Assembly (NCBI GenBank): GCA_014384025.1
Contig: JACNGQ010000149.1
Coordinates: 1 to 39,189 of the forward strand
Direction of reading: 5' to 3'
Origin: Planctomycetota bacterium
Lineage (GTDB): Bacteria > Planctomycetota > Phycisphaerae > Sedimentisphaerales > Anaerobacaceae
DNA: 39,189 nucleotides
Shown: positions 13,074-37,949 of the stretch, one piece after another
Position numbering within the stretch: the stretch's first letter is position 1
Layout: the number at the start of each line of letters is the position of its first letter
Made by a program: the position numbers and the translations under genes
Notes under the pieces: generated by a model
The model's input: the letters and a program-made list of their open reading frames with translations, nothing else
Database searches by the model: none
What the model was told of the DNA's origin: nothing

Positions 13074-15485
13074 TCAGTTATCTATAGGCCCCGTCGAATT
13101 ATCTCCGCTCATTTCCCACCATAATCTCGGATAACCCGACCTTTCGGTTATCTTCCAAATGTCATAGATTCCATTTACGCTCTCATCAACGAAGTCCCAG
13201 CCGGCTTCTATGAAGGTTTCAGCCGTTTGCATCCCCGCTGTCGTCTTACCTTCTCCACCAAAGCTCGTAGCCTTCCCGCTCGTATCGACATCCCAGAAAC
13301 AACCGCTGATTTCGCGGTTCAAATTGTTCCCTACGAGGCCTCCGGTTTGAAAACCCCCCAGGACGGCTGTTATCGAATAGCAATTATCTATTGTACCTTC
13401 GTGACGTCCGCCGGACCTGGTGTTGCTCCCCACCAGGCCGCCTACATACCACTGGCCGGAAACACTACCCATGGCATAGCAGTTGTTTATCTCGCCGTCG
13501 GAATTCCGTCCCAAAAGACCGCCCACTGCATCTACGCCACTGACGTTTGAATTCGAATAACAAGCCATAACCATGCCGCCGTTTCTCCCCACAAGGCCGC
13601 CGGAAGCGTCACCTTCAGAGCCAATACTGCTGCTCGAACGGCAACTTATAATGGTGCCCGAATTTTCGCCCGCCAATCCACCAACATTATCATATCCATT
13701 GATGTTCCCTGCAGCATAACATCTCTCGATACCGCCCCACTCGGACAGCACAAAATCCAGCCCATCTTCCGGCCGGAATCTGAAACCATCGTTCTTTCCT
13801 ACCAGCCCGCCGATTCGGTCATTGCCGAAAACGTCCGCTGCAGCATAGCAGTCTGTAATTCGGCCGTTATTATTCCCCGCCAGAGCGCCTACGTAATCAT
13901 CTCCTGAAACACTGCCGCCCTCAACGTAACAGTTTGTTATAACCGCCACGTCTGAGTATCCGACAAGACAACTGTTAAAATCGCCTCTTACTATATCCAA
14001 ATCAGGATTAATCAATCCCAAATTTTTGATCTGCGCACTGGCTGCAAAGGCGAAGAGCCCTGCGTAATCTCTATACATGGAAGTGTAGCTGAGGTTTGAA
14101 ATAGTATGACCGTTGCCGTCAAATACACCACGGAATGGATACCATTGACTTCCTATAAAGTAAAACTTAACACCGGCCAAATCAATATCGTCAATTAACC
14201 TGAAATGCGACGACATCAGTTGCAGGTTATCGCCGATACTGTTCAATTCATCGGCAGTCGAAATAAGGTAAGGCTCATCAACCTGCCCTGTTCCACCGGA
14301 AAAAGTCGGCAATTCCGGCAAAGTTGAAAGCTGCCAGAAGAGAATCGGATATCCTCCCCCATCAGACTCCGCCCAGTGATCACCGGGGCCGTCCTGCGCA
14401 CCGACAAAGTCCCATTCTGCGTCTATAAACGTATTTGGATCCTGCATTTTGACCGTCGTCTTACCGAAACCGCCGTCACTTGTTAACTGGCCGCTGGTTT
14501 CAATGTCCCAGAATGACATCCAGACCGCATCTCTTAAGGGTACGCCTGCCCGACTACCTTGATTACTTCCTGATCCCACCAGGCCGCCAACTTTCATTGT
14601 TCCCGAAACGTCGCCAACTGAATAGCAGTTGATGATTGTACCGCCGCTTCCAGCTAAGCCCCCGACGTCTCTATGACCTGAAACGCTCCCTCTCGAATAG
14701 CAATTGACAATTGTGCCGTTGTTATTTCCCACAAGGCCGCCAATAGAGCGGTCAATACCCGTGACATCAGCGGTTGAATAGCAGTGGTTGATGGTGCCGC
14801 GGCTGTCGCCCACCAGGCCGCCGACATCATCACGTCCAAAAACCTCACCTGAACTGAAAGAGTTTGAAATTGAGCTACGATTATTTATCGCTACCAGTCC
14901 CCCGACACTATCACTGCCCGAAACGCTCCCGTTAAAATAGCAATCCGAAATGTTGCTGTTAACATAACACACCCCCACGAGGCCACCGACCCCTATTCCA
15001 CCCGAAATGCCGCCGCCTTCGCAATAGCAGTTGACAATAGAACCTAATTCAAACCAACCCGCTAACGCACCTATGTAGTCTCCTGCTCCAGCATCAACAT
15101 TAAAGCCAATCAATCCCAAATCTTTGATTATCGCATCCATAGCAAAGCCAAAGATACCGGTAAAACCTCTGTACATGGAAGTATAAGTAAAATTTGAAAT
15201 TGTATGACCGTTGCCGTCAAAAATTCCCGTAAAGGCATTAATATGATCGATACCTATTATATTGAAATCCGTTCCCTTATAGCCGCTCAAATCAATGTCC
15301 CCCATGAGCTTGAACTGCTTGTCCCAATCATTGGGTTCGGCACCAATCGTATTCATCTGCTCGCCTGTGTAAATCAAATAGGGATCCTCGGCTGTACCAC
15401 TGCCGCCGCCGTACTTCGCCTGAGCAGGTAAGGTCAGAAACAACACACACAACAGCCATCTTAAAAGATTTGCCTTCCCTCTCAT
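13074..15485 (-). CDS. Large secreted GLUG-motif repeat protein
   Basis: The 803-residue protein starts with a signal peptide (MRGKANLLRWLLCVLFLTLPAQA). It contains many GLUG-type repeats with the core GGLVG-N and units of about 25 residues such as NCYSRGSVSGHRDVGGLAG. It is built as two halves, each opening with a G-GT--DPYLI-T--E-N-IG strand (near residues 26-50 and again mid-protein) and closing with a FWD-(I/V)-(T/S)SG-GKTT--MQ-P/A-TFI-A-WDF cap. GLUG proteins are surface or secreted beta-solenoids, sometimes adhesive. No dockerin, PEP-CTERM or anchoring motif is visible at the C terminus. Confidence 0.88.
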   Translation of the reverse strand: MRGKANLLRWLLCVLFLTLPAQAKYGGGSGTAEDPYLIYTGEQMNTIGAEPNDWDKQFKLMGDIDLSGYKGTDFNIIGIDHINAFTGIFDGNGHTISNFTYTSMYRGFTGIFGFAMDAIIKDLGLIGFNVDAGAGDYIGALAGWFELGSIVNCYCEGGGISGGIGVGGLVGVCYVNSNISDCYFNGSVSGSDSVGGLVAINNRSSISNSFSSGEVFGRDDVGGLVGDSRGTINHCYSTADVTGIDRSIGGLVGNNNGTIVNCYSRGSVSGHRDVGGLAGSGGTIINCYSVGDVSGTMKVGGLVGSGSNQGSRAGVPLRDAVWMSFWDIETSGQLTSDGGFGKTTVKMQDPNTFIDAEWDFVGAQDGPGDHWAESDGGGYPILFWQLSTLPELPTFSGGTGQVDEPYLISTADELNSIGDNLQLMSSHFRLIDDIDLAGVKFYFIGSQWYPFRGVFDGNGHTISNLSYTSMYRDYAGLFAFAASAQIKNLGLINPDLDIVRGDFNSCLVGYSDVAVITNCYVEGGSVSGDDYVGALAGNNNGRITDCYAAADVFGNDRIGGLVGKNDGFRFRPEDGLDFVLSEWGGIERCYAAGNINGYDNVGGLAGENSGTIISCRSSSSIGSEGDASGGLVGRNGGMVMACYSNSNVSGVDAVGGLLGRNSDGEINNCYAMGSVSGQWYVGGLVGSNTRSGGRHEGTIDNCYSITAVLGGFQTGGLVGNNLNREISGCFWDVDTSGKATSFGGEGKTTAGMQTAETFIEAGWDFVDESVNGIYDIWKITERSGYPRLWWEMSGDNSTGPIDN

Positions 15486-15551: not shown

Positions 15552-17963
15552 TTAGTAATCACGAACGATAATCGCATCTTCACCTACCAGATAACGGTCT
15601 GAACCTGAGACCTTGAGATTATAGACCTTGCCTGCATAATGTACTGGCCTTTTAGTCACGCTTATAATCCCAATCGGGCCTTCTAACGTCTTCAGTTTTA
15701 TTCCCGATTTTAGATCTTGCAGCGAGAGCCATTGCCCGGATTCCGCCATGAAGTAATGATTTTCAGCTACGCTGATACTGTTTCCACTCTGGAGCAAAAC
15801 ATCATAGCACGCGAATATCCCTTCGTGCTCCTCTAATTTTTCGATTTGCGCAGTAGTGTTTGTCAGCCAGGTGACTTTACCAATTGTCCGGCCTGCGGCA
15901 ACTTTCGAGATTTGCACAAGTGCCCCATCTACCCACACGGGCGTATCAGCGAGAAAACACCCCCTGCCCTTAGGCGGAGGAACTGTTGTAAATGTCCATA
16001 CGTTACCGGTTATTATCTCGCCCTCGCTATCGACCTCATTAATCCGCCAGTAGTAAGGCCCAATGTCCCAACTGAGACCTCCGGGAGGAGTATAGCTGGT
16101 GGCAGCCTGGCGGCCGCGATATACGCCGGTCGTATTTGATGTATCGGCATCAGCAACAGCATCGATATCAACACCGAAGTAAACATCGTGAGATGAGGCA
16201 TTTAAGCCGGAGGTCCAGCTCAATTGAATATATACATCAACGTTAAAAGCTCCGTCTGCCGGACTGGGATTGGAAGCCTGGCCGGACAAATGCGGAAGTA
16301 ACTGTAGTGACAGACTGGCCTGAGGTGTTCCGCCATAGGCCCCCATATTAATTCGGCCCCCATTGGGAAAACGCTCAAGGCCAACGGGCTCGTCAGGACT
16401 GCCCGCATCAATACACGGACTGCCTATCGTATCAACAACCCAGTCTCCGCCATTCGGCTCCCATCGGCCCGCCTGAGATTTCAGATGGAAGTCGCCGTTC
16501 TCGGGATCCGCAAACAATGGATCACTGTCGAGATTGCCTTCGCCGGGCCAGCCATTTTGCACATTACTGTAGATGACCTCTATATTACCGCTTTTACGAC
16601 CTCTTTCTGTGCCTTCAGCCTGTATTTCATCCGGCGTATCAGCCCAGAGAATACAGTTGGCCAGCGTAAGGTGGCCATTCTGGATATTTATTCCGCCCCC
16701 TGCATGTTCTGCGAAGTTTGTACTGAACGTACAATTAAGCAGTATCGAGGTGCTGTTGCTAAGGTTCTCCATCCCACCGCCGTCTCTGGCCCTATTGCCG
16801 CTGAATATACAATTATTCATGCTCGTCTCACTTCCGTTGTAATTGTACAAGCCTCCTCCGCTTCTTAATACCGAGTTTCCATTGAAAATGCAGCTAAGTA
16901 ATGTCGGCTTGCTGCTGTTGTTGTACATTCCACCTCCACTTCCTTCTGTCGAGTTACTACCAAACATACAGTCGGCCAACATTGGAATACTTTCTTCGTT
17001 GTACATCCCACCGCCGCCGCCACCACCTGCCGAGTTATCGGCAATTGTGCAATTGGTCAGCGTTGGATCACTCTTTTCGTTATATATCCCCCCGCCACTC
17101 ATACCTGCAGTGTTTTCGGTAAATATGCAGTTGAGCAATACCGGCTTGCTGTTGTTGTTGTACATCCCGGCGCCACTGCCACCAACGGAATTCCTGCTGA
17201 ACGTGCAATTTGTCAGCATCGGGCTGCTATTATTATTGTACATCCCGGCACCGCCTGCGGGTGCATCGTTGTCGCTGAACGTACAGTTGAATAGTACCGG
17301 ATTACTGTTATTGTTGTACATCCCGGCTCCAATGTCTGTTGCCAGGTTATCACTGAAAGTACAATTCATCACCGTCGGGTTACTATTATCGTTGTACATT
17401 CCGCTGCTGTGATCGTAAGGCGTTATCGTCATCCTTGCACTGATACCACTACCGGTGATAGTGAAACCATCCAGAACAGCCGTCTCATCGGTTCCGCCGG
17501 CCTCTACGACATGATAGCTGTTGTCCTTCACATTATCGATATCGAACAACTCCGGATTATCGTCGGCGTTAAGGTCACCACTTAGAATGCTTTCGTATTG
17601 GTTGATGTCTCTAACGTCAGTCTGTCCCCGATGGCTGCTGAATTGTGCGACATAGCCGCCTTTAATAGTCACACCGTTCATAAGTTGAAACGAAGCCCTG
17701 ATATCTCCCGGCATGATACCAAGCCCCCTATCAGGCGTATAGATACCCTGGGCAACGCGTATCTCCACCGGCTTATCAGAACAACAGGCAATTAATAAGG
17801 CATCCTGCAGGGAGTTAATAGCATTCACCCAGCTTGTACCGAGATTTAAACCGTCGGCATCGTCATCCACATAAATGACCTCGCCTGTCGCAGCCGTGCA
17901 TAACGCTACTAAAAGATACAGCATGCACACCGGCCATCTTACAAAATTTGCCTTCCCTCTCAT
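15552..17963 (-). CDS. Secreted right-handed beta-helix protein with C-terminal Hint (intein-like) domain
   Basis: A signal peptide starts MRGKANFVRW. A DDDADGLNLGTSWVNA segment is followed by about nine beta-helix turns of roughly 24 residues (pattern NP-L-NCTFS-N-A---GGGMYNN), as in polymorphic outer-membrane or parallel beta-helix proteins. Residues about 560-665 form a fibronectin-like domain (SNPSPADGAFNVDV ... YYWRINEVDSEG). Residues 669-803 match a Hint domain: CFLADTPVWVDG with Cys669 at the N-S acyl shift position, block-F-like SVAENHYFM with His736, WLSLQDLKSGIKL, and VYNLKVSGSDRYLVGEDAIIVRDY-type ending. The usual terminal His-Asn is Arg801-Asp802, so Asn-dependent cleavage is unlikely. 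Surface display or thioester-type self-processing is inference. Confidence 0.85.
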   Translation of the reverse strand: MRGKANFVRWPVCMLYLLVALCTAATGEVIYVDDDADGLNLGTSWVNAINSLQDALLIACCSDKPVEIRVAQGIYTPDRGLGIMPGDIRASFQLMNGVTIKGGYVAQFSSHRGQTDVRDINQYESILSGDLNADDNPELFDIDNVKDNSYHVVEAGGTDETAVLDGFTITGSGISARMTITPYDHSSGMYNDNSNPTVMNCTFSDNLATDIGAGMYNNNSNPVLFNCTFSDNDAPAGGAGMYNNNSSPMLTNCTFSRNSVGGSGAGMYNNNSKPVLLNCIFTENTAGMSGGGIYNEKSDPTLTNCTIADNSAGGGGGGGMYNEESIPMLADCMFGSNSTEGSGGGMYNNSSKPTLLSCIFNGNSVLRSGGGLYNYNGSETSMNNCIFSGNRARDGGGMENLSNSTSILLNCTFSTNFAEHAGGGINIQNGHLTLANCILWADTPDEIQAEGTERGRKSGNIEVIYSNVQNGWPGEGNLDSDPLFADPENGDFHLKSQAGRWEPNGGDWVVDTIGSPCIDAGSPDEPVGLERFPNGGRINMGAYGGTPQASLSLQLLPHLSGQASNPSPADGAFNVDVYIQLSWTSGLNASSHDVYFGVDIDAVADADTSNTTGVYRGRQAATSYTPPGGLSWDIGPYYWRINEVDSEGEIITGNVWTFTTVPPPKGRGCFLADTPVWVDGALVQISKVAAGRTIGKVTWLTNTTAQIEKLEEHEGIFACYDVLLQSGNSISVAENHYFMAESGQWLSLQDLKSGIKLKTLEGPIGIISVTKRPVHYAGKVYNLKVSGSDRYLVGEDAIIVRDY
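16660..17410 (-). repeat. Beta-helix coding repeats, about 72-75 nt per unit
   Basis: Recurring plus-strand blocks such as TTGTTGTACATCCC and GTACAATT/GTGCAATT appear roughly every 72-75 nt. They encode the YNNNS and NCTF turns of the beta-helix. Confidence 0.75.
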
Positions 17964-25297: not shown

Positions 25298-26422
25298 ATG
25301 CAGATATTCTTGTCTCGGCCGGACATAACCGCCAAAGAAATCGAAGCGGTCTGTGAGGTGCTTCGCGGCCCAGAGCTTTCGCTTGGCCCCAAGCTAACGG
25401 AATTTGAAAAGGCTTTTACCGACTACACCGGCTCAAAGCGGGCAGTTGCCGTCAACAGTGGGACCAGCGGGCTGTTCTTGTCTATGTTGGCTCTGGGAAT
25501 CGCACCGGGTGATGAAGTTATTACAACGCCTTTTACTTTCATTGCCTCTGCGTCTTCGGTCATGATGGCCGGCGCAAAACCCGTCTTTGTTGATATTGAC
25601 CCGCAAAACCTGAATATCGACCCTGCAAAAATCGAAGCTCGAATTACAGACCGGACAAAAGCCATTTTGCCCGTGGAGGTTTTCGGCAATCCTGCCGGCC
25701 TCGACAAGGTCGCTGAAATTGCTCAAAAACACCATTTGTCCGTAATAGAAGATAGTTGTGAAGCCCTCGGTTCTGAATTGAACGGGAAAAAGACCGGGAC
25801 ATTCGGTACAATGAGCGTATTCGGCTTCTATCCAAACAAGCAGATTACCACCGGCGAAGGCGGGATGATTCTGACCAACAACGATTCTCTGGCCGATATG
25901 TGTGTATCACTTAGAAATCAGGGAAGGGGACCCGACGGCACATGGCTCGGACACGAAAGACTGGGCTATAATTTTCGCCTGAGTGATATAAATTGTGCGC
26001 TCGGAATTGTCCAGCTCTCGAGAATAGACCAAATCAAAGCAAAACGCCTGCAAGTCGCAAAATGGTATCAGCATATGCTCGCTGACGAGTCCAGACTGAT
26101 AGTACCCACCGAGCCCGATGGCTGTGATATGAGTTGGTTTGTCTTTGTCGTTCGACTGGCTGATGGCTTTACTTTGGACCACCGGGAGCGTATTCTGCAC
26201 GCCATGAGAAACGAAAACATCCAGGTCAGCAATTATTTCTCTCCTGTGCACCTGCAGCCGTTTATGGTCGAGAAATTCGGCTATAGCCAGGGCGATTTTC
26301 CTGTTACAGAGGCCGTCTGTAAAAGCACTATCGCCCTGCCGTTTCATAACAATTTGACTAAGGATGAAGTGGCAATTGTCTGCAAAACATTGAAAGAAGT
26401 GTTGGACAAACATCAGCCGTAG
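25298..26422 (+). CDS. DegT/DnrJ/EryC1/StrS family PLP aminotransferase
   Basis: The 374-residue protein has an ideal AAGGAG 8 nt before the ATG. Family motifs: RPDITAKEIEAVCEVL at the N terminus, VNSGTSGLFLSMLALGI, GDEVITTPFTF, IEDSCEALGSELNGKKTG, and GFYPNKQITTGEGGMI with Lys181 as the PLP-binding residue, followed by NFRLSDINCALG. These enzymes aminate nucleotide-linked keto sugars for surface polysaccharides. No sugar-nucleotide gene is adjacent, but a glycosyltransferase operon lies 3-7 kb away on the other strand, which may be related (inference). Confidence 0.9.
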   Translation: MQIFLSRPDITAKEIEAVCEVLRGPELSLGPKLTEFEKAFTDYTGSKRAVAVNSGTSGLFLSMLALGIAPGDEVITTPFTFIASASSVMMAGAKPVFVDIDPQNLNIDPAKIEARITDRTKAILPVEVFGNPAGLDKVAEIAQKHHLSVIEDSCEALGSELNGKKTGTFGTMSVFGFYPNKQITTGEGGMILTNNDSLADMCVSLRNQGRGPDGTWLGHERLGYNFRLSDINCALGIVQLSRIDQIKAKRLQVAKWYQHMLADESRLIVPTEPDGCDMSWFVFVVRLADGFTLDHRERILHAMRNENIQVSNYFSPVHLQPFMVEKFGYSQGDFPVTEAVCKSTIALPFHNNLTKDEVAIVCKTLKEVLDKHQP

Positions 26423-26673: not shown

Positions 26674-26988
26674 ATGAGAGGATGGAGAGCTAAACTCGTT
26701 TTTATGCTGGTGGTCTATTTTGGAGGCTTTGCGACTGCGATTTATACTTTGGCGCCCGCCCCTGAAAACAATGCCAATGCTTCTGCTAATTCTTCGTTTT
26801 TTCGAAGTGTAAAGGCTGATGTGGAAGAAAAAAGCTCTGTTTTTTCGGCGGTTAAATCAGACGAGTTCAAAAATTCTGTGAACTCAGGGATACAAAAGTG
26901 TTTTGAGTTTAGTAAGGATGCTGCCTGGCGTACTGCCAGATTCATAAAACAAAAGATTGATGAAAGACAAGCTCGGACTGATAGCTGA
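26674..26988 (+). CDS. Small membrane-anchored or secreted protein of unknown function
   Basis: The 104-residue protein has a strong Shine-Dalgarno (AGGAAGGGAG) 7 nt upstream. Residues 8-27 (LVFMLVVYFGGFATAIYTLA) form a membrane anchor or signal. The rest is a polar, Ser/Lys/Glu-rich helix-prone region (SVKADVEEKSSVFSAVKSDE ... RTARFIKQKIDER) that could form an amphipathic helix or coiled coil. No family is recognised. It appears monocistronic, with its own promoter and an AT-rich inverted repeat 3' to it. Confidence 0.7.
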   Translation: MRGWRAKLVFMLVVYFGGFATAIYTLAPAPENNANASANSSFFRSVKADVEEKSSVFSAVKSDEFKNSVNSGIQKCFEFSKDAAWRTARFIKQKIDERQARTDS

Positions 26989-27203: not shown

Positions 27204-29183
27204 TTATAATCCGAGTTTCACTTGCTCGTTGAATGTTCGCAACTGCACGCTTATAGTGTTTAGCACCCAGTCGATATAGTGCAATTTGTGAGTGGGCCGA
27301 TGGTGCCCTTCGTTCATCAGGCCGTTCCTTACGGTTTTCAAGAATCTGCTTATTGTTTGTGAGCTTATCTTAGTAGGTTCCGCAGCCCATTGCTTTAATT
27401 CTTCATATTCCAGTCGTAATTTCCTGCTGCTGCATAACTGTTCAGCGGTTAAATAATCACCGGGATTGTAATCAAGCTGAAGACCTTTGAGACACATGAT
27501 TAACGGCTCATAATTGGTCTTTTCTCCAAGACGAATAAATTTATACTGATGGACATGCGTAGTCGCCTGGGCCGGCGGCTTATCTGCTATACCCCCTCCG
27601 CCAAGATACCACCTGCGCTTACTCGTTCTGGCAAACACAAGCTCCTCGCCATTCGTTTCTTCGCTCTGTTCCCCGGCGGAATCCGACAAAGCCGATGAAA
27701 AACGATTGGAATATTGTGTTATCTCATCATGACCCATTCTTGAAACCCAAAATCTGCCTGAGTCCTTTCGTTCAGGACCGCCGCCGAGCAAGAGTAAGCA
27801 CTTAACAAAACCCAGAGGCAATATTTTTTGGTTATCAATCTGTCTTTTTCGAAGCTGGAAAGAAAGATGCAGGCTATGTGGGCGAACGTCATAGAAATTG
27901 GTTATCTCGTGTATCAACTTATTGAGAAGCCACGGATCCGAAGTTGCCGGCCGGGAAAGTTCTCCCCGAATGTTCAGCCGTCCCGGAGCAAGTTCCAGAA
28001 AACCGCACCGCCGGCCATGATCGGTTGAGCCTGTGTGATCGTCGATGTATCCACCGAGTTTCCAGGATAAAACATCCAGGTGAAAATCATAGAAATACTT
28101 GAATCCGTCATATATCGCGTCTTTCTTGTTTTGTATGCTCCTTTGGGGATTGACTGCCGCAGGACCAAGATTGCTCAGCTCAATCTCTGCGCCTAATGGA
28201 ACCAGCCCGGGCTGAAGACTCGAATAAATTAGTCTCAGCTTTGCTTGTGCAATGCGTGCATCAAACATACTATTCGATGCACGTACCGCGTATTTGACAT
28301 AATCAATGAGGTCGTGCTTGTCACACGGCATTGTTTGAAGACATTTTCTAATTATCAAATCTACGGCCTTGCTGTTTGCGTTTACCATTTGCAAAGCCGC
28401 AAGAATACTGACTGACTGCTTAAAATATCGCTCTGAAATATGCATATGCTCAAGTTCAAACCGGTATCTGGACTGGATTTGATCATCGAGCTGATTGAGC
28501 AGAACCTGCCTGACAACCAGACTCAGATAGTTCTTCATAAACGGCCTGGTTTCCGGGTCACTGTATAAGTGTTTTATGCTCGGCCGGGGCCTGTCCAGCT
28601 CGTGCTCAAGATAATAATCGCTGACGGCATCGGTGTGATAATGGCTCATAACAAGATCACGCTCGGTCGTCGCGAGCAGCTCCCGGTTCGCACGACGCTC
28701 CGATTCTGCGTCCGCCGTACGCTCGCCGGGACGGACATGTCTTTTGATGAATTTCTCTATGCGTTTTCGAAGCCAAAGCTCGTGTATAAGATTAACATGG
28801 AACCTGTCGCCAAAGTGCTGCTTCATCGAGCTGAGAGTTACAAGGTAAGCATGTGCTTTGACCGATCCATTTGCCGTGTTGACTTGCACCATTTCTCTTT
28901 CATAACGCTTGCCTTCATACCTGTCGATTTCAGCCATCGCCCAGCCGGGAATATCATAGACCACCAGCCCTTCGATTTTTGATGACGGTGCTGAAACGGC
29001 ATAGAAATAGACATTGTCCGGGCTGAGCTTTCGATAATGGGCAAGAAAGGCCGGCTCCGCCCAAAGGGTCTCGCCGTCAACTTTGGATGCCTTCCTGCTA
29101 AAACTTAAACCGCTGACGGATTTGAAGATTCGACTGTCCCGCAGCGAGCCGTAGATAAACAGATTTACCTTTCTCTCGTTCAT
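27204..29183 (-). CDS. Gamma-glutamylcyclotransferase-like domain fused to an amidoligase-like region
   Basis: Residues 5-145 are a GGCT (AIG2-like) domain: LFIYGSLRD (9-17), EGLVVYDIPGWAMAEIDRYE with the candidate catalytic Glu90 in YEGKRYER. The middle (150-320) is helical with no recognised family. The third part has LGAEIELSNLG (330-340), FLELAPGRL (395-403) and HSLHLSFQL (436-444), which resembles the GxExE / E-x-P / HxH order of glutamine-synthetase-fold amidoligases. Amidoligase and AIG2-like genes are known to associate, which supports the reading, but this domain call is an inference. AGGA lies 4 nt before the ATG. It is the last gene of the operon starting with the class I aminotransferase. 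No signal peptide is seen, so it is cytoplasmic. Confidence 0.7.
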   Translation of the reverse strand: MNERKVNLFIYGSLRDSRIFKSVSGLSFSRKASKVDGETLWAEPAFLAHYRKLSPDNVYFYAVSAPSSKIEGLVVYDIPGWAMAEIDRYEGKRYEREMVQVNTANGSVKAHAYLVTLSSMKQHFGDRFHVNLIHELWLRKRIEKFIKRHVRPGERTADAESERRANRELLATTERDLVMSHYHTDAVSDYYLEHELDRPRPSIKHLYSDPETRPFMKNYLSLVVRQVLLNQLDDQIQSRYRFELEHMHISERYFKQSVSILAALQMVNANSKAVDLIIRKCLQTMPCDKHDLIDYVKYAVRASNSMFDARIAQAKLRLIYSSLQPGLVPLGAEIELSNLGPAAVNPQRSIQNKKDAIYDGFKYFYDFHLDVLSWKLGGYIDDHTGSTDHGRRCGFLELAPGRLNIRGELSRPATSDPWLLNKLIHEITNFYDVRPHSLHLSFQLRKRQIDNQKILPLGFVKCLLLLGGGPERKDSGRFWVSRMGHDEITQYSNRFSSALSDSAGEQSEETNGEELVFARTSKRRWYLGGGGIADKPPAQATTHVHQYKFIRLGEKTNYEPLIMCLKGLQLDYNPGDYLTAEQLCSSRKLRLEYEELKQWAAEPTKISSQTISRFLKTVRNGLMNEGHHRPTHKLHYIDWVLNTISVQLRTFNEQVKLGL

Positions 29184-29230: not shown

Positions 29231-29953
29231 TCAGTCTTTTCGGATCTGTTTCCACAACCTGAATAGCTCTTTAAATGCACGAAGAATTACATGCAAATTC
29301 GCTCCGGTTTGTGCCCCTGCCGTCCGCGGATAATGATGGACGCCCTGCTGTACCACAAGATAACCTTTGCGAACAGCACGAGCTAAAATTTCAGCATCGA
29401 TAAGGGCCCCGGCACTTACTAACTTAATGTTATCAAATATTTCCCTTTTGTATAACTTGAAAGCACAGTCGATGTCGCGGATTTTCATGCCGAACAGCAG
29501 GCAAACAAGTTTCGTCCAGCACCAGCCGTTGATTTTACGTATGAGGTTGTCCTGGCGGTTCAATCGATAGCAGCTAACAATATCGTATTGACCCATTAAT
29601 CCAAGCAGTGCCGGCATCTCATTAATATCGAACTGGCCGTCCCCGTCGGTATAAAAGACAAGCTCTTTTGTCGCCGCGTTGAAACCCGATTGAAGCGCCG
29701 CCCCGTATCCAAGATTGCCCCGATGATGCACAACTTTGATCCTGTCATTTCCGCGGGCAAGCTCATCGGCAATCTTGCCCGTATCGTCGCTGCTGCCGTC
29801 GTCAACGATAATTACTTCAAAGTCGGCGTTGAGCTTTTCCAGTACGACAACTGCCTTTTCTAATACGCCGGCGATATTGTCCTGTTCGTTATAGCAGGGA
29901 AAAAAAACGCTGATGGAAACATTGTGTGCTGGCTCAGTCATAATAAAAAACAT
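29231..29953 (-). CDS. Family 2 glycosyltransferase (dolichyl/undecaprenyl-phosphate sugar transferase type)
   Basis: The 240-residue protein has the GT2 fold: SVFFPCYNEQDNIAGVLEK, FEVIIVDDGSSDDTGKIA, YTDGDGQFDINEMPAL with the nucleotide-sugar/metal DxD, and DIDCAFKLYKREIF. It lacks C-terminal membrane helices, like single-domain polyprenyl-phosphate mannosyltransferase-like enzymes. It probably makes a lipid-linked sugar donor. An in-frame Met at 29941 (MTEPAHNV) may be the true start, as neither start has a strong ribosome binding site. It follows the GT-C-like membrane protein (28-bp gap), which is the expected user of such a donor. Confidence 0.88.
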   Translation of the reverse strand: MFFIMTEPAHNVSISVFFPCYNEQDNIAGVLEKAVVVLEKLNADFEVIIVDDGSSDDTGKIADELARGNDRIKVVHHRGNLGYGAALQSGFNAATKELVFYTDGDGQFDINEMPALLGLMGQYDIVSCYRLNRQDNLIRKINGWCWTKLVCLLFGMKIRDIDCAFKLYKREIFDNIKLVSAGALIDAEILARAVRKGYLVVQQGVHHYPRTAGAQTGANLHVILRAFKELFRLWKQIRKD

Positions 29954-29981
29954 AGAGCATAAGACTTATGAACTTATTTAC

Positions 29982-32564
29982 TTACCACCTCTTGATTTGA
30001 GACACCCTTATCAATTCACTTACATATTTGCTTTGCAGAGCTCGGTAAAGGTTCACCAACTCCGTGTTTTTCTGAGCTTGGGCGACATTCTCCAGATAAT
30101 AGCCTGCTAACCGTCCCGCTTCAAGCCTGTCACGATAACCGTCCTCATTGGCCCATTTAGCCTCATTGTCTGTAAACCTCTTGATATAATCTTCGCAAAA
30201 CTTTTGAACGTGTGGTCTTATCTCGACGAACCTCGAAGCTAAAAGTATTATTTCAATCATAGCCGCAGGCGATTCATTCAATTCAAAGGCCTTGACGGCA
30301 AAATCAAAACCCTTCTTCTTCTCTAATATCCCTATACGATAGTAAAGCCAGCTGCGGGCGCAAATAAGGTTCCGGTGATAATCGTCCGGGTAAAGGGTTT
30401 TGCCGTCAAATATACCATCAAAGAGCGCCTTGCCCTGCGGTGTTGTTATATCGACGTACAATCTCTGCTTATCATTGAAGAAAACAACACGCCAATTCAT
30501 ATTACGTTCAATACCCTGCAAGGCGTGATAGGATGTTTTAGTATAATATTCATCCCGCGGAGGCATGCTGCAATTTGACTGAGGCATTAACACTAACCAG
30601 ACGCCATATTTCCTTAGCTGCTCATCCATCCACTGACCGATCTTTATATAATCGTCATTAGTTAAATCCTGCCCCCTGGATGCGGCTCGTGCCAGCCTCT
30701 GACCTGTGTCATAGCCCCCACCCATAATATCCGTCCAGACATCAAAGGCTTCCCGGTTATAAGCCGCCTGTGCCCTGCCGTCCATAAATAACTGTAAAGG
30801 TATTTTGCCCGTATTCGGGTCGGGCTCCTGACCGAAAGCTACAAAACCACCCTCTGTCCAGTAATTAAACATATTTCCTTTTAACTTGTTATCTTTTATG
30901 AATTTGCAGGCGTAAAACGGCTTTTGCCCCGAGTCGGTCATCCGCATAAACATCGAAGTTAATTTCGGGTCGCGAGGCCATGAATCCAGATAAATACGCT
31001 TAAATTTAAGGCCCCACCATACGCCGAAATACATCACAAGCATCGCACCCGACAAAACAAAAAATAATTGCTGATTATAACTCATCACCCCAACAGCCAG
31101 ATGTTTGTTTTTCCGAAAGTTTGTAAATGCTGAAATTGCACGAACAAGCTGGTCAATCAACATTGCTATAATCGGGCAGGCCGCGATGGCCGCCACAGGA
31201 ATAAATCTGCGCGAACGAACCGCCATATAAATCGTAAGAGCGGCTATAAGCATCAGTGACATATCTATTTTCGGCCACTGATAACCTATGGGAAGTTTCA
31301 TTTTCCGCCTGGTTTGCTGGTCAACAGACTTGGAAGTTTTTATCAGCACAATAGCCCAGGCCAAAAGAGCCGCCCAGCCCATAATGTACACCACTAAAAA
31401 AGGCACCGCAGTACCGACCGGATTGGTCCAGTCAAAAGCCGGATGCCACTCGTGAATGTTACGCCATCTTGCTGCGTGCTCGCTCACACTGATAGCAAAA
31501 GTATGAGTCAGGTTCGTTAAATGAAAAGGATTGAACACAACCGTAGCCACAAACGCTGCAAAAGCAGCCCCAATAGTATGATACACGCCCTTCCATCCGA
31601 TCGAAACAAGATTGTTCTTGTAAAATACCAGCAGAATATCCAAAACTATCACGAGAATTGAAAACAGAAAGGACGGCAACGTCAAACCCGCCCTGGAAAG
31701 AACGAAATATAAGAAAGGCCAGGCGGTAACATTGTACAAAATAGCAGTCCACTTTTTATTTAAGTTGGTAAACAGATGCAAACCTATAAACGGCACAAGC
31801 ATTATGAACGCGTAGATATATCCGCCGTGGACATTGCACCAGAAAACCGCCACCGGAACAATCAGCCATATATACAAAACGTTGCGATATGTCGTAAGGG
31901 CAAGTATAAGCAAAAAGACTGCCACTAACATATTCGAAAAACCCGCCGGGCGGATATCGAGAAATGAACGTCCCGTAAACATCGCAAAGCAGGAAAAAAC
32001 CGCACACAGCCACGGATGGACACCCAGCAACCGCCCCGTGTAATAAACACAAACCACAGTCAATATGTAAATAGCAAACTTCCAATAGACCAGCGCGTTG
32101 GATGGAAAACTTACTCCGTCCGCATAGGATGATTCGGGAATCAACGAATAGAAGATAATGTGCGTCAGCCAGTTCTGATTTATCCAGCCGGTCGGGTGCC
32201 AGTATTTGACCGTTTCGATGCCGACTTTATCCGTAATCCATTGGGCCCAGTTTGGCCAAGTTTTAATCTCTTCTTCCGTCGGCCCTGCTTTATGTGAATT
32301 CACGCTGAAAGGCTCGACTGTATCAACCCCGTGATTGACAAAATGCCGCCCGCAAGCCATCGCGACCCACGTATCACCCGCGGCCACCATGTGTGTACAC
32401 GCATGAAATGTAAATATAAGCATCGCCACCCAGCAGATGACAATGGAAACACGCCGCAGATCAGAAAACATTTTACTCGTGACATGTACCTCCTGACTTC
32501 TGTCTTCTGACTTCTGTCCTCTGTTTGTCAACTTCTGATTCTTACTTTCTACTGACTCAGCCAT
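29982..32564 (-). CDS. Large polytopic membrane protein, GT-C glycosyltransferase-like
   Basis: The 860-residue protein has about 12 hydrophobic segments (first VSIVICWVAMLIFTFHAC, last near LFFVLSGAMLVMYFGVWW) followed by a soluble region of some 340 residues. The acidic AAGDTWVAMACGRHFVNHG in the first loop is where GT-C enzymes such as ArnT/PMT keep their catalytic Asp. The start overlaps the upstream aminotransferase stop by 16 bp, so translation is coupled. Residues 8-25 are coded by a heptad repeat (SKNQKLTNRGQKSEDRSQ), and Met32 could be the functional start. The GT-C assignment rests on topology and this motif only. Confidence 0.7.
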   Translation of the reverse strand: MAESVESKNQKLTNRGQKSEDRSQEVHVTSKMFSDLRRVSIVICWVAMLIFTFHACTHMVAAGDTWVAMACGRHFVNHGVDTVEPFSVNSHKAGPTEEEIKTWPNWAQWITDKVGIETVKYWHPTGWINQNWLTHIIFYSLIPESSYADGVSFPSNALVYWKFAIYILTVVCVYYTGRLLGVHPWLCAVFSCFAMFTGRSFLDIRPAGFSNMLVAVFLLILALTTYRNVLYIWLIVPVAVFWCNVHGGYIYAFIMLVPFIGLHLFTNLNKKWTAILYNVTAWPFLYFVLSRAGLTLPSFLFSILVIVLDILLVFYKNNLVSIGWKGVYHTIGAAFAAFVATVVFNPFHLTNLTHTFAISVSEHAARWRNIHEWHPAFDWTNPVGTAVPFLVVYIMGWAALLAWAIVLIKTSKSVDQQTRRKMKLPIGYQWPKIDMSLMLIAALTIYMAVRSRRFIPVAAIAACPIIAMLIDQLVRAISAFTNFRKNKHLAVGVMSYNQQLFFVLSGAMLVMYFGVWWGLKFKRIYLDSWPRDPKLTSMFMRMTDSGQKPFYACKFIKDNKLKGNMFNYWTEGGFVAFGQEPDPNTGKIPLQLFMDGRAQAAYNREAFDVWTDIMGGGYDTGQRLARAASRGQDLTNDDYIKIGQWMDEQLRKYGVWLVLMPQSNCSMPPRDEYYTKTSYHALQGIERNMNWRVVFFNDKQRLYVDITTPQGKALFDGIFDGKTLYPDDYHRNLICARSWLYYRIGILEKKKGFDFAVKAFELNESPAAMIEIILLASRFVEIRPHVQKFCEDYIKRFTDNEAKWANEDGYRDRLEAGRLAGYYLENVAQAQKNTELVNLYRALQSKYVSELIRVSQIKRW
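32494..32528. repeat. TGACTTC/TGTCTTC heptad array inside the N-terminal codons of the membrane protein
   Basis: Five in-phase heptads (TGACTTC, TGTCTTC, TGACTTC, TGTCCTC, TGTTTGT on the plus strand) are read through in frame as a polar, low-complexity stretch of the minus-strand membrane-protein gene. Confidence 0.7.
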
Positions 32565-33739
32565 TCTTCCAGTCTGTTTAAACCCTTGGTAATCTGCTCA
32601 AGCGAACAGGCAAAACTCAAACGAACGTTATTATCACAGCCAAACGGCAGCCCCGGAACCACCGCAACATTAGTCTGTTCCAGAAGCGCCTTTGCAAAAT
32701 CCATACTGCCGTTAATCTGCGCACCATTAATATTTCGGCCATAATGCCCCGAAACATCAGGGAAACAGTAAAAAGCACCCGTACTTTCCGGACATTCCAC
32801 ACCATCAATACTGTTCAGCCGTTCACACATATACTTGCCGCGACGCTCGAATTCCTGTCTCATACTCTCTATGGCCTGCTCGGCAGGCTCACCTAAAGCC
32901 GCAATCGCCGCATACTGACCGAAGGTGACGGCATTCGAAGTCATGTGAGACTGAAGGCGCCCCATCGCCTTGATAACATCAAGCGGCCCAGCCGTATATC
33001 CCAGACGCCAGCCCGTCATAGAGAATGTCTTGCTGAAGCCGTTAAGAGTCAAAGTCCTGTTGTAAGCATCATCACTCAGCGATGCAAAACTCACGAACCT
33101 GGTATCACCATAGATTAGCTTCTCATAGATTTCATCCGAGAGCACCATTACCTTTGTCCCTTCGAGTACCGTAGCAATGGCCTTCAGCTCTTCCGGTGTA
33201 TAGGTAAAACCGCCAGGATTACTCGGCGAATTAATCAAAACCATAGCCGTTTTCGGCGTAATGGCCTCTTTCAACTGCGACGGTGTCATCTTGTAGCTGT
33301 TTTTCTTATCGGTTTGAACAATCTTAGCAACCGCCCCGGCCAGCTTTATCGTCTCCGGATAAGTTACCCAGTACGGTGTAGGCAAAATAACCTCGTCACC
33401 CGGGTCAAGCACTGCCTGCATCACAAGATAGACAGAGTGTTTGCCCCCGATATTGACAATAACCTGCTCAGGGCTGTATTCGAGACCGTTTTCCTTTTTA
33501 AGCTTGTCTGCGATAGCGGCCCGCAGCTCAATCAGACCGGATGAAGCCGTGTATTTCGTCTTACCGGCCTTCAGCGCCTCGACAGCCGCCTCCTTGATAT
33601 ATTCCGGCGTATCGAAATCCGGAGCACCTGCCCCAAAACCAACCACGTCCGCTCCTTCTGCTTTTAACTCCTGCGCACGCGCCGAAACCGCCAATGTCGC
33701 CGATGGCGGCACATCCTGAGCTCGTTTACTGACTTTCAT
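32549..33739 (-). CDS. Class I PLP aminotransferase (aspartate aminotransferase type)
   Basis: Start taken at the ATG at 33739 (MKVSKRAQDVPPSATLAVSA), preceded by AAAGG; a TTG three codons upstream is possible. Class I gamma-subgroup aspartate aminotransferase motifs are seen: GAGAPDFDTPEYI, YWVTYPE, INSPSNPGG, LSDEIYEKLIYG, and LNGFSKTFSMTGWRLGY with the PLP Lys in SKT. Substrate is probably aspartate or a related amino acid and 2-oxoglutarate. It is the first gene of the operon with the GT-C-like, GT2 and GGCT/amidoligase-like genes, and its stop overlaps the next start. A housekeeping role riding in the operon is possible. Confidence 0.88.
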   Translation of the reverse strand: MKVSKRAQDVPPSATLAVSARAQELKAEGADVVGFGAGAPDFDTPEYIKEAAVEALKAGKTKYTASSGLIELRAAIADKLKKENGLEYSPEQVIVNIGGKHSVYLVMQAVLDPGDEVILPTPYWVTYPETIKLAGAVAKIVQTDKKNSYKMTPSQLKEAITPKTAMVLINSPSNPGGFTYTPEELKAIATVLEGTKVMVLSDEIYEKLIYGDTRFVSFASLSDDAYNRTLTLNGFSKTFSMTGWRLGYTAGPLDVIKAMGRLQSHMTSNAVTFGQYAAIAALGEPAEQAIESMRQEFERRGKYMCERLNSIDGVECPESTGAFYCFPDVSGHYGRNINGAQINGSMDFAKALLEQTNVAVVPGLPFGCDNNVRLSFACSLEQITKGLNRLEEWLSQ

Positions 33740-33820
33740 CTTATTCAAACCTTTCTAAATTGAATTCTAAACAACTCCTGTATTCTGTTTTAATTTAACC
33801 ACCCGACTATTAAATACAAA

Positions 33821-36845: not shown

Positions 36846-36925
36846 ACCACAACAACAGTCAAGAAAATTGACATTCCCCAAATACTCCGTACATTGTTTG
36901 TAGCGGCGGTTCGCGAACCGCCCTC
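36846..36925. repeat. 80-bp direct repeat, copy B
   Basis: This is the partner of 33821-33900. It contains a perfect 18-bp palindrome GGCGGTTCGCGAACCGCC (36905-36922) and abuts the truncated 5' end of the RHS remnant. Translating through it gives the false N terminus of the RHS frame. Confidence 0.85.
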
Positions 36926-36956
36926 TGTTTTTTGTAGATCCGGCCTTCCGTGGACG

Positions 36957-37949
36957 GAATCAATAATCACTTACGTATATGACGGCGGTAACGTTATAGC
37001 CGAATACGACGGCAATAACAACCTCACACGCAAATACATCCACGGTGCGCGCGTTGATGAGATGGTCTGTATGATAGACGTCGCAGACAGTAACGCTGTC
37101 TATTACTATCACTACGACGGTCTGGGTTCCGTTAAAAACATTGTCATTGCGAAGGAGCGAAGCGACTTCGGCTTTTCTTCAATACCAACTCAAAACTCAA
37201 CACTAAAAACTCAAAACTAAATTGCCGGCCGAAGATTCGATTACGAAACAGGTCTTTACTACTACCGCGCACGATACTATAATCCATACATCGGCCGGTT
37301 CTTACAGACAGACCCTATCGGCTACGGCAATGGCATTAACTGGTATGCGTATTGTGGAAATAATCCACTGAATTTTGTGGATCCAAGTGGCTTAGTAACA
37401 GTTACTTTCTATGATCCGGATGATGTATTGTATACTTATCTACCAAATGGCGATATTTCTGGACAGGTTAGTGGTGGATTCGAAGAGTATGCCGATGATT
37501 TCAAGTACAATTACGAAATGAAAAATTTTGGCGATATATTAAATGCATTGTATAATCTTCGCCACAAGGAAGGTGCCGAAGTCACTGAAATTTATATCTA
37601 TGATCATTGTATGAACGATGCAGGTCAAAATGTGACAGGTTTGGAATTCGGCAAAAGCAAGTATAAATTTGAAGGTGGTGAACTTGAAAAGTACACGAAA
37701 TTATTTGGATTCCTTAGGGAAAAAGGATATCTTACAGAGGATGCTACTATTAACTTCAGACACTGCTTTCTTGGGTTGGAACAAAATAAGAGCAAGCTCG
37801 AAAATTTAGCCGAATGGACAAAAGGAAATGTGACTGGCGTTAATGGATGGATATTACATAAATCTATTAGCTTTGATAGGAGTAAAGGAGATAATGGGTG
37901 GGATAAAACGAGGGTGCCTTGGCATGCTTATTACTTCATCAATGAATAG
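36957..37949 (+). pseudogene. RHS/YD-repeat protein 3' remnant with an in-frame stop and a possible peptidase-like C-terminal domain
   Basis: Frame-consistent RHS sequence begins near 36957: YVYDGGNVIAEYDGNNNLTRKYIHG and YYYHYDGLGSVKN, then a 35-bp heptad array ending in TAA (37218-37220), then the same frame goes on with AGRRFDYETGLYYYRARYYNPY, IGRFLQTDPIGYGNGINWYA and the conserved NNPLNFVDPSGL. Downstream, about 185 residues form the variable C-terminal domain, containing EIYIYDHCMNDAG (His) and ATINFRHCFLG (Cys), suggesting a caspase-like/DUF4347-type His-Cys peptidase fold (weak). The 5' part is missing. After the TAG at 37947 the frame stays open for 48 codons. It is probably a broken polymorphic-toxin gene. 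Confidence 0.75.
37188..37222. repeat. ACTCAAA-heptad array inside the RHS frame
   Basis: Five in-phase heptads (ACTCAAA, ACTCAAC, ACTAAAA, ACTCAAA, ACTAAAT) interrupt the RHS gene between the DGLGSVKN and AGRRFDYETG segments. The stop codon TAA at 37218-37220 lies in the fifth unit. Confidence 0.8.

Follow-up and report, generated by a model that had tools for sequence, protein, structure and literature searches.

A conserved operon of sediment planctomycetes encodes two unnamed protein families on known folds, a GT-C-like membrane protein and a putative cyclotransferase-ligase fusion

The DNA analysed here, a 39,189-nucleotide stretch of a planctomycete genome (hereafter the window; contig JACNGQ010000149.1 of assembly GCA_014384025.1), carries four closely spaced minus-strand genes. 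Their products, an aminotransferase, a GT-C-like membrane protein, a GT2 and a protein with predicted amide chemistry, raise the question of whether such a row serves one pathway of the cell envelope, as a first-pass annotation had proposed, or several unrelated ones. The four open reading frames reported there were confirmed, with the overlap (16 bp) and the two gaps (28 bp and 47 bp) exactly as given. The interval assigned to the locus, 29231-33739, accommodates three of the genes; the fourth, at 27204-29183, falls outside it. The features are, in order of transcription:

32549-33748, minus strand: AAT, aspartate aminotransferase-like (PF00155, 5.3e-80; match to 1j32; nearest paralogue 39%)
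32549-32564, minus strand: 16-bp overlap of the AAT and GT-C reading frames, exact in the window and recurring in relatives
29982-32564, minus strand: GT-C, 860 aa (no Pfam family; model fold; invariant loop residues)
29231-29953, minus strand: GT2, 240 aa (PF00535, 2e-28; ArnC 9hwj and Dol-P-Man synthase 5mlz; NCBIfam matches)
27204-29183, minus strand: fused GGACT-ligase protein, 659 aa (PF06094, 3.4e-11; model fold)

From spacing and conservation we infer one operon, read as a single transcript from the aminotransferase through GT-C and GT2 to the 659-aa protein. The overlap between the first two reading frames goes beyond chance because it recurs, at 16 bp in 29 of the 50 loci where the two genes were called on the same strand and at 13 bp in seven more; the same two genes lie no more than 60 bp apart in 38 of the 50. 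Translation of the aminotransferase may begin at a TTG (33748) or at an in-frame ATG (33739), the latter being the end of the interval originally assigned. Its best solved relative is the aspartate aminotransferase 1j32 (7.1e-118), and the source genome holds no close paralogue, the nearest being 39% identical. By sequence the protein is most likely a housekeeping aspartate aminotransferase that heads the operon. Scanning for promoters performed no better than on shuffled sequence (12 against a mean of 11.2), the terminator scan was likewise uninformative, and Shine-Dalgarno-like motifs were scarce ahead of called starts (7/58, 12/54 and 3/40). Upstream of the row by 405 bp, on the same strand, lies a glycogen phosphorylase gene which is not adjacent in most relatives.

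Conservation was followed in 80 genomes, the source genome included, belonging to seven families (f1, the source's own, to f7), and in 61 mapped loci, namely the window and 60 stretches from 60 relative genomes. The neighbourhood is conserved in close relatives and across the order, which contig titles give as Sedimentisphaerales; its absence from close relatives had been named at first pass as the observation that would count against the proposal. The 860-aa GT-C was found in 75 of the 80 genomes and the 659-aa protein in 54, distributed as follows:

f1 (own family): GT-C 44/48, ligase protein 44/48
f2: GT-C 9/9, ligase protein 0/9
f3: GT-C 1/1, ligase protein 1/1
f4: GT-C 4/5, ligase protein 0/5
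f5: GT-C 8/8, ligase protein 0/8
f6: GT-C 1/1, ligase protein 1/1
f7: GT-C 8/8, ligase protein 8/8

An alanine racemase gene stands between GT2 and the ligase gene in f3 and f7, and often directly follows GT2 in f2 and f4. Counting only loci with both genes called on the same strand, GT-C and GT2 are at most 60 bp apart in 50 of 55, GT2 and racemase in 18 of 18, and racemase and ligase in 8 of 8. Of 38 loci, 28 place the ligase gene no more than 300 bp from GT2; nine of the other ten pairs are separated by about 1.1-1.2 kb (with a racemase called in eight) and one by 318 bp. These counts are slight underestimates because ORF calling missed GT2 in L081, L090 and L091, three genes (GT-C, GT2 and ligase) in L096, and the racemase in L104. 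The ancestral order looks like aminotransferase, GT-C, GT2, racemase, ligase; on this view f1 has lost the racemase, and f2, f4 and f5 are without the ligase. The operon is real and conserved, comprising two unnamed protein families on known folds, and is named nowhere in the literature searched, which covered few subscription papers. Five loci (L074, L081, L086, L111 and L120) have a gene that by eye resembles a sigma factor between the aminotransferase and GT-C, breaking the overlap. At four f5 loci (L123 to L126) GT-C comes after a gene of the DNA topoisomerase VI subunit A cluster, identified from the L123 member; DNA topoisomerase VI is unusual in bacteria.

The racemase assignment rests on a member at L106, which matches PF01168 and PF00842 and scores above the TIGR00492 cut-off. 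Relatives occur in 33 of 80 genomes, three of the 48 in f1 and 30 of the 32 outside it; among genomes at least 90% complete and at most 5% contaminated the figures, from a rounded table, are 1/18 and 22/22. Searching the source genome with the racemase N-domain profile returned, as identified by eye, nothing beyond one YggS-like protein and some that resemble decarboxylases. D-Ala-D-Ala ligase-type genes are present in 79 of 80 genomes, and a D-amino-acid-transaminase-like gene in all 80, scoring below cut-off (in the source genome, about 250 bits against 277). The latter may supply D-alanine in the racemase-less source genome and its family. Given these two kinds of gene, the idea that racemase-less f1 does without peptidoglycan was set aside.

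The GT-C protein has no Pfam match, and no Pfam family is common to two or more of its 26 aligned members at E<=1. Its AlphaFold model (pLDDT 83.5, pTM 0.84) predicts 13 transmembrane helices, arranged as one helix, a long loop and then twelve helices, with a second long loop separating helix 9 from helix 10. The chain is completed by a mixed domain (periplasmic dome, residues ~538-709) and a C-terminal helical repeat (725-860). Foldseek ranked DPY19 (7zli) best, at 5.1e-7 and 10% identity, with OST/STT3 structures from 3.5e-5. VIA gave STT3 a Z of 20.8 over 453 residues at 4.4 A, followed by PglB (18.1), AglB (17.5), DPY19 (16.9), PMT (15.6) and ArnT (14.3), where rows less than 1 Z apart count as tied and the ranking covers the families that VIA lists. 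From Z 20.8 downward the top rows are nearly all GT-C enzymes, and the GT-C-like label of the first reading is borne out as a predicted STT3/PglB/AglB/DPY19 fold. CeDPY19 likewise has thirteen helices, long EL1 and EL5 loops and a dome (PMC10154233).

Conserved loop residues agree with this placement. According to the literature, GT-C enzymes have an acid in the first loop, R and/or D/E/N/Q in the second and R/K or N/Q in the third, where STT3 and DPY19 carry N or Q, together with a Glu in EL5 and Rx4-14P in EL6 (PMC6801728). The 26-row alignment of the 860-aa family follows that pattern, with D64 (loop 1/EL1) in 25 rows and R199 with D203 (loop 2/EL2), N244 (loop 3), E372 (EL5) and R452, R453 then P464 (EL6; R453-x10-P464) in all 26; the loops were assigned to the outside from the model topology. 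Spacing in EL2 is Rx3D, not Rx6D, and the dome motif is WTxGG. The dome motif of STT3 is WWDYG.

The family thus shares with STT3/PglB/AglB (GT66, PF02516) the 13 transmembrane helices, long EL1 and EL5, a periplasmic C-terminal dome, the EL1 Asp, the EL2 Arg/Asp, the EL5 Glu and the EL6 Arg then Pro, and differs in its dome motif, its extra C-terminal helical repeat and its lack of a PF02516 match. That profile matched none of the 26 members at E<=1 and nothing in the source genome; hhalign against seven planctomycete PF02516 proteins returned a probability of 0.6%, which, given the few sequences behind the STT3 profile, is weak evidence against a relationship. The link to STT3 rests on predicted structure, profile comparison having given no significant match. 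DPY19 C-mannosyltransferases have the same topology, and their lipid-phosphate monosaccharide donor would suit the neighbouring GT2, whereas the 860-aa protein lacks their ExE motif after the first helix, is 10% identical and is without a Pfam match; no DPY19 profile or Pfam family is common to its members at E<=1. Judged on its model, the protein is closer to protein-modifying GT-Cs than to an envelope-polymer enzyme.

GT2 carries a PF00535 GT-A domain, and its nearest relatives are mostly lipid-phosphate-sugar synthases. The PDB relatives are ArnC (9hwj, 1.6e-22) and Dol-P-Man synthase (5mlz, 2.5e-9); with NCBIfam, the set comprises ArnC, dolichyl-phosphate hexose transferase, PgfS, AglJ, PpgS and DPM, of which PgfS, AglJ and PpgS are taken by us to be lipid-phosphate-sugar synthases. 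No NCBIfam equivalog cut-off was reached, the best being ArnC at 93.1 bits against a cut-off of 529. PF00535 is common to ArnC and the dolichyl-phosphate sugar synthases, although GT2 has 240 residues to the 322 of ArnC 9hwj. Sequence relationships place GT2 among putative polyprenyl-phosphate-sugar synthases, and the lipid-linked sugar donor synthase of the first-pass annotation holds for the kind of enzyme. With GT2 adjoining, the donor of GT-C is suggested to be a monosaccharide-phosphate, unlike the oligosaccharide diphosphate of STT3-type enzymes.

The fourth protein had been credited with amidating or cyclising activity, and at fold level both a cyclotransferase and an amide-ligase fold are present. 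Its model (pLDDT 77.5, pTM 0.78) resolves into a GGACT cyclotransferase domain (residues 1-120), a helical region (125-325) and a GS/PafA-Dop-like carboxylate-amine ligase fold (327-657). PF06094 (GGACT) scores 44.2 bits over a cut-off of 22.8 and is matched by all 30 aligned members, window included, across which mean column identity is 67%. Residues 1-120 match AIG2/GGCT proteins including 2g0q (Z up to 14.1) and ChaC2, and the catalytic-type E90, in a DxYEG motif, is invariant (30/30). Residues 327-657 match Dop (9cku, Z 12.0 over 240 residues at 4.1 A), PafA (11.5), GshF (3ln6, 10.2), gamma-glutamylcysteine synthetase (2d32, 9.9) and glutamine synthetases (about 9), so that the rows at Z 8-12 are PafA, Dop, GshF, GshA and GS over 229-274 residues. 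Nine residues of this domain are invariant in all 30 rows (G331, E333, E335, E397, H436, H439, S441, R482 and R551); to judge by their order along the chain, they are probably the residues with which the GS fold binds metal and ATP.

PafA and GS use ATP to activate a gamma-carboxyl, which they then couple to an amine (PMC7947786). Compared with PafA/Dop and the glutamine-synthetase-like ligases, the planctomycete protein has a like fold but no sequence match, together with the GGACT fusion; PF06094 and Glu90 are shared with GGACT/AIG2 gamma-glutamylamine cyclotransferases, which are stand-alone enzymes where here the domain is an N-terminal module. No ligase model, PF03136 or PF04107 matched the 30 members at E<=1. 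The Pup ligase/depupylase family PF03136 has no member in the source genome, and hhalign against planctomycete Pup-ligase proteins gave a probability of 0.2%; the link to PafA/Dop rests on predicted structure, profile comparison having given no significant match. A Pup-like small substrate encoded beside the ligase gene was rejected, as short ORFs within 2.5 kb cluster in at most six loci and none is order-wide. Its model suggests an enzyme that can form as well as cleave a particular kind of amide bond.

Relatives of the 659-aa protein were found in 4 of 246 genomes of the phylum (E<=0.001), all in Sedimentisphaerales. Of 118 GTDB loci with relatives, 80 were listed, and nearly all of these bear the name Planctomycetota or that of a group within it, the exceptions being one uncultured bacterium and one Kuenenia that is possibly mislabelled. 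Within what was searched, the family is confined to Sedimentisphaerales. Viral origin was rejected, there being no relative in viral contigs.

We infer the donor, the sugar, the acceptor and the part of each residue as follows. GT2 would load one sugar onto polyprenyl phosphate at the cytoplasmic face, and the charged carrier would flip across the membrane to serve GT-C. GT-C would then use Asp64, Arg199/Asp203, Glu372 and Arg453 to hand the sugar on to an acceptor in the periplasm, most likely a secreted protein held beneath the C-terminal dome. The 659-aa protein would act in the cytoplasm, where its ligase domain could use ATP to couple an amine to the gamma-carboxyl of a free or peptide-terminal glutamate, and its GGACT domain could free the amine again with formation of 5-oxoproline; these substrates, the direction of the reaction and any tie to glycosylation are read from the fold and conserved residues. 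Within this reading we favour the step in which a polyprenyl-phosphate carrier gives up its sugar to a periplasmic acceptor; of the two halves, sugar transfer has the stronger support because GT-C and GT2 adjoin in 50 of 55 loci. A protein acceptor is favoured because of the GT-C fold and its dome. The ligase half is well supported by its model as an enzyme, and its link to the sugar half is one of neighbourhood only. We hold the joint reading, in which the glycosyltransferase pair sugars a periplasmic acceptor, the 659-aa protein ligates and releases a gamma-glutamyl amine and the aminotransferase keeps house, tentatively and at a little under even confidence. Counting against it are the missing PF02516, Rx3D and WTxGG, heptosyltransferase-like neighbours, the absence of the ligase from three families and a ligase sequence that the PafA/Dop profile fails to match.

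Where the sugar goes could be otherwise. GT-C may be an ArnT-like or LPS-core enzyme passing a polyprenyl-phosphate sugar to an envelope glycolipid such as lipid A or the LPS core, since ArnC is the best match of GT2, ArnT appears in the GT-C fold list (Z 14.3), and LPS-heptosyltransferase-like GT9 genes, often with DUF2062 and NUDIX genes, occur near 22 of 61 loci. An LPS acceptor is favoured by this last line, in which the GT9 call depends on one tested member (PF01075; TIGR02193 at 172 bits against a cut-off of 185). STT3/PglB/AglB and DPY19 nevertheless fit better (Z 15.8-20.8 against 13.2-14.3 for ArnT), the periplasmic dome is common to them and the GT-C model, and within the window the operon has no adjacent heptosyltransferase; we consider a glycolipid acceptor unlikely. 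Doubt of a similar kind attends the 659-aa protein, which might run an entire gamma-glutamyl cycle on one polypeptide, serving a polyamine or a low-molecular-weight thiol and playing no envelope role, its halves performing GshA-like synthesis and GGCT/ChaC-like breakdown. The ligase domain also fits GshF (3ln6) and 2d32 (Z 10.2 and 9.9), the N domain fits GGCT and ChaC2, and the protein has no strong membrane stretch (maximum 19-residue hydropathy 1.25). Three points leave such a cycle somewhat improbable: PafA and Dop fit a little better, at Z 11.5-12.0 against 10.2 for GshF, a margin of no more than about 2; PF04107 is not matched; and the gene shares its operon with glycosyltransferases.

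Whether there is a common pathway at all is a sharper question. Four or five vertically inherited, functionally unrelated genes could share a promoter in one order, with the aminotransferase and racemase as amino-acid housekeeping, the glycosyltransferase pair glycosylating and the fused ligase handling a small molecule. That would account for an ordinary aspartate aminotransferase, a racemase not found in 45 of 48 f1 genomes, a ligase gone from f2, f4 and f5 where the glycosyltransferase pair is retained, and an f5 GT-C placed after a topoisomerase VI subunit gene. The order and close packing of the genes are kept, however, at ligase identities as low as about 54%, with GT-C and GT2 (50/55), GT2 and racemase (18/18) and racemase and ligase (8/8) within 60 bp; a shared promoter without shared function is a substantial possibility that falls short of even. 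The original proposal, one envelope glycoconjugate pathway with sugar transfer and amidation or cyclisation on the same product, can point to the conserved linkage that ties the glycosyltransferase pair to a ligase and, in the ancestral row, to an enzyme making D-alanine. Against it, components were lost independently between families and no shared substrate or export gene was found. A single pathway of all four genes fits poorly with a GT-C kept where the ligase is absent (f2, f4 and f5) and with an ordinary aminotransferase, and an envelope glycoconjugate as product fits poorly with a GT-C nearest to protein-modifying enzymes, though 22 of 61 loci have LPS-heptosyltransferase-like genes in their vicinity. 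We regard the single pathway as improbable.

Bolder still, and the least probable of the readings considered, is a new envelope-modification machine in which an STT3/DPY19-class transferase outside the named families and a write-and-erase ligase-cyclotransferase act in the same pathway. Were it true, an unnamed STT3/DPY19-class enzyme would sugar secreted proteins from a lipid-phosphate monosaccharide, and a PafA/Dop-like ligase with a gamma-glutamylamine cyclotransferase would reversibly put a gamma-glutamyl or peptide tag on an amine. The STT3/DPY19 branch of protein-glycosylating enzymes would extend to an unnamed bacterial family, with a bacterial pair of donor synthase and transferase small enough for testing in one organism, and the making and breaking of gamma-glutamyl amides on one chain would be added to known domain fusions. 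The operon is kept throughout an entire order of planctomycetes from sediments, a group about whose envelope chemistry little is known, and both enzymes are directly testable.

Several further features lie in or near the row. The GT-C gene contains, within its N-terminal tail, a 14-bp tandem repeat of 2.2 copies (32493-32523); the length of this tail varies between relatives. Adjoining the operon is a DegT/PseC-like sugar aminotransferase gene (25298-26422), as also in 4 of 60 fetched loci. A plus-strand ORF of 104 aa (26674-26988) with one hydrophobic stretch adjoins the ligase gene; it has no Pfam match, and its relatives occur in few loci only. Elsewhere in the window, the ORF at 36894-37220 has by eye RHS-repeat-like text and is possibly a fragment, and two successive minus-strand ORFs of 803 aa (13074-15485 and 15552-17963) are possibly a duplicated pair.
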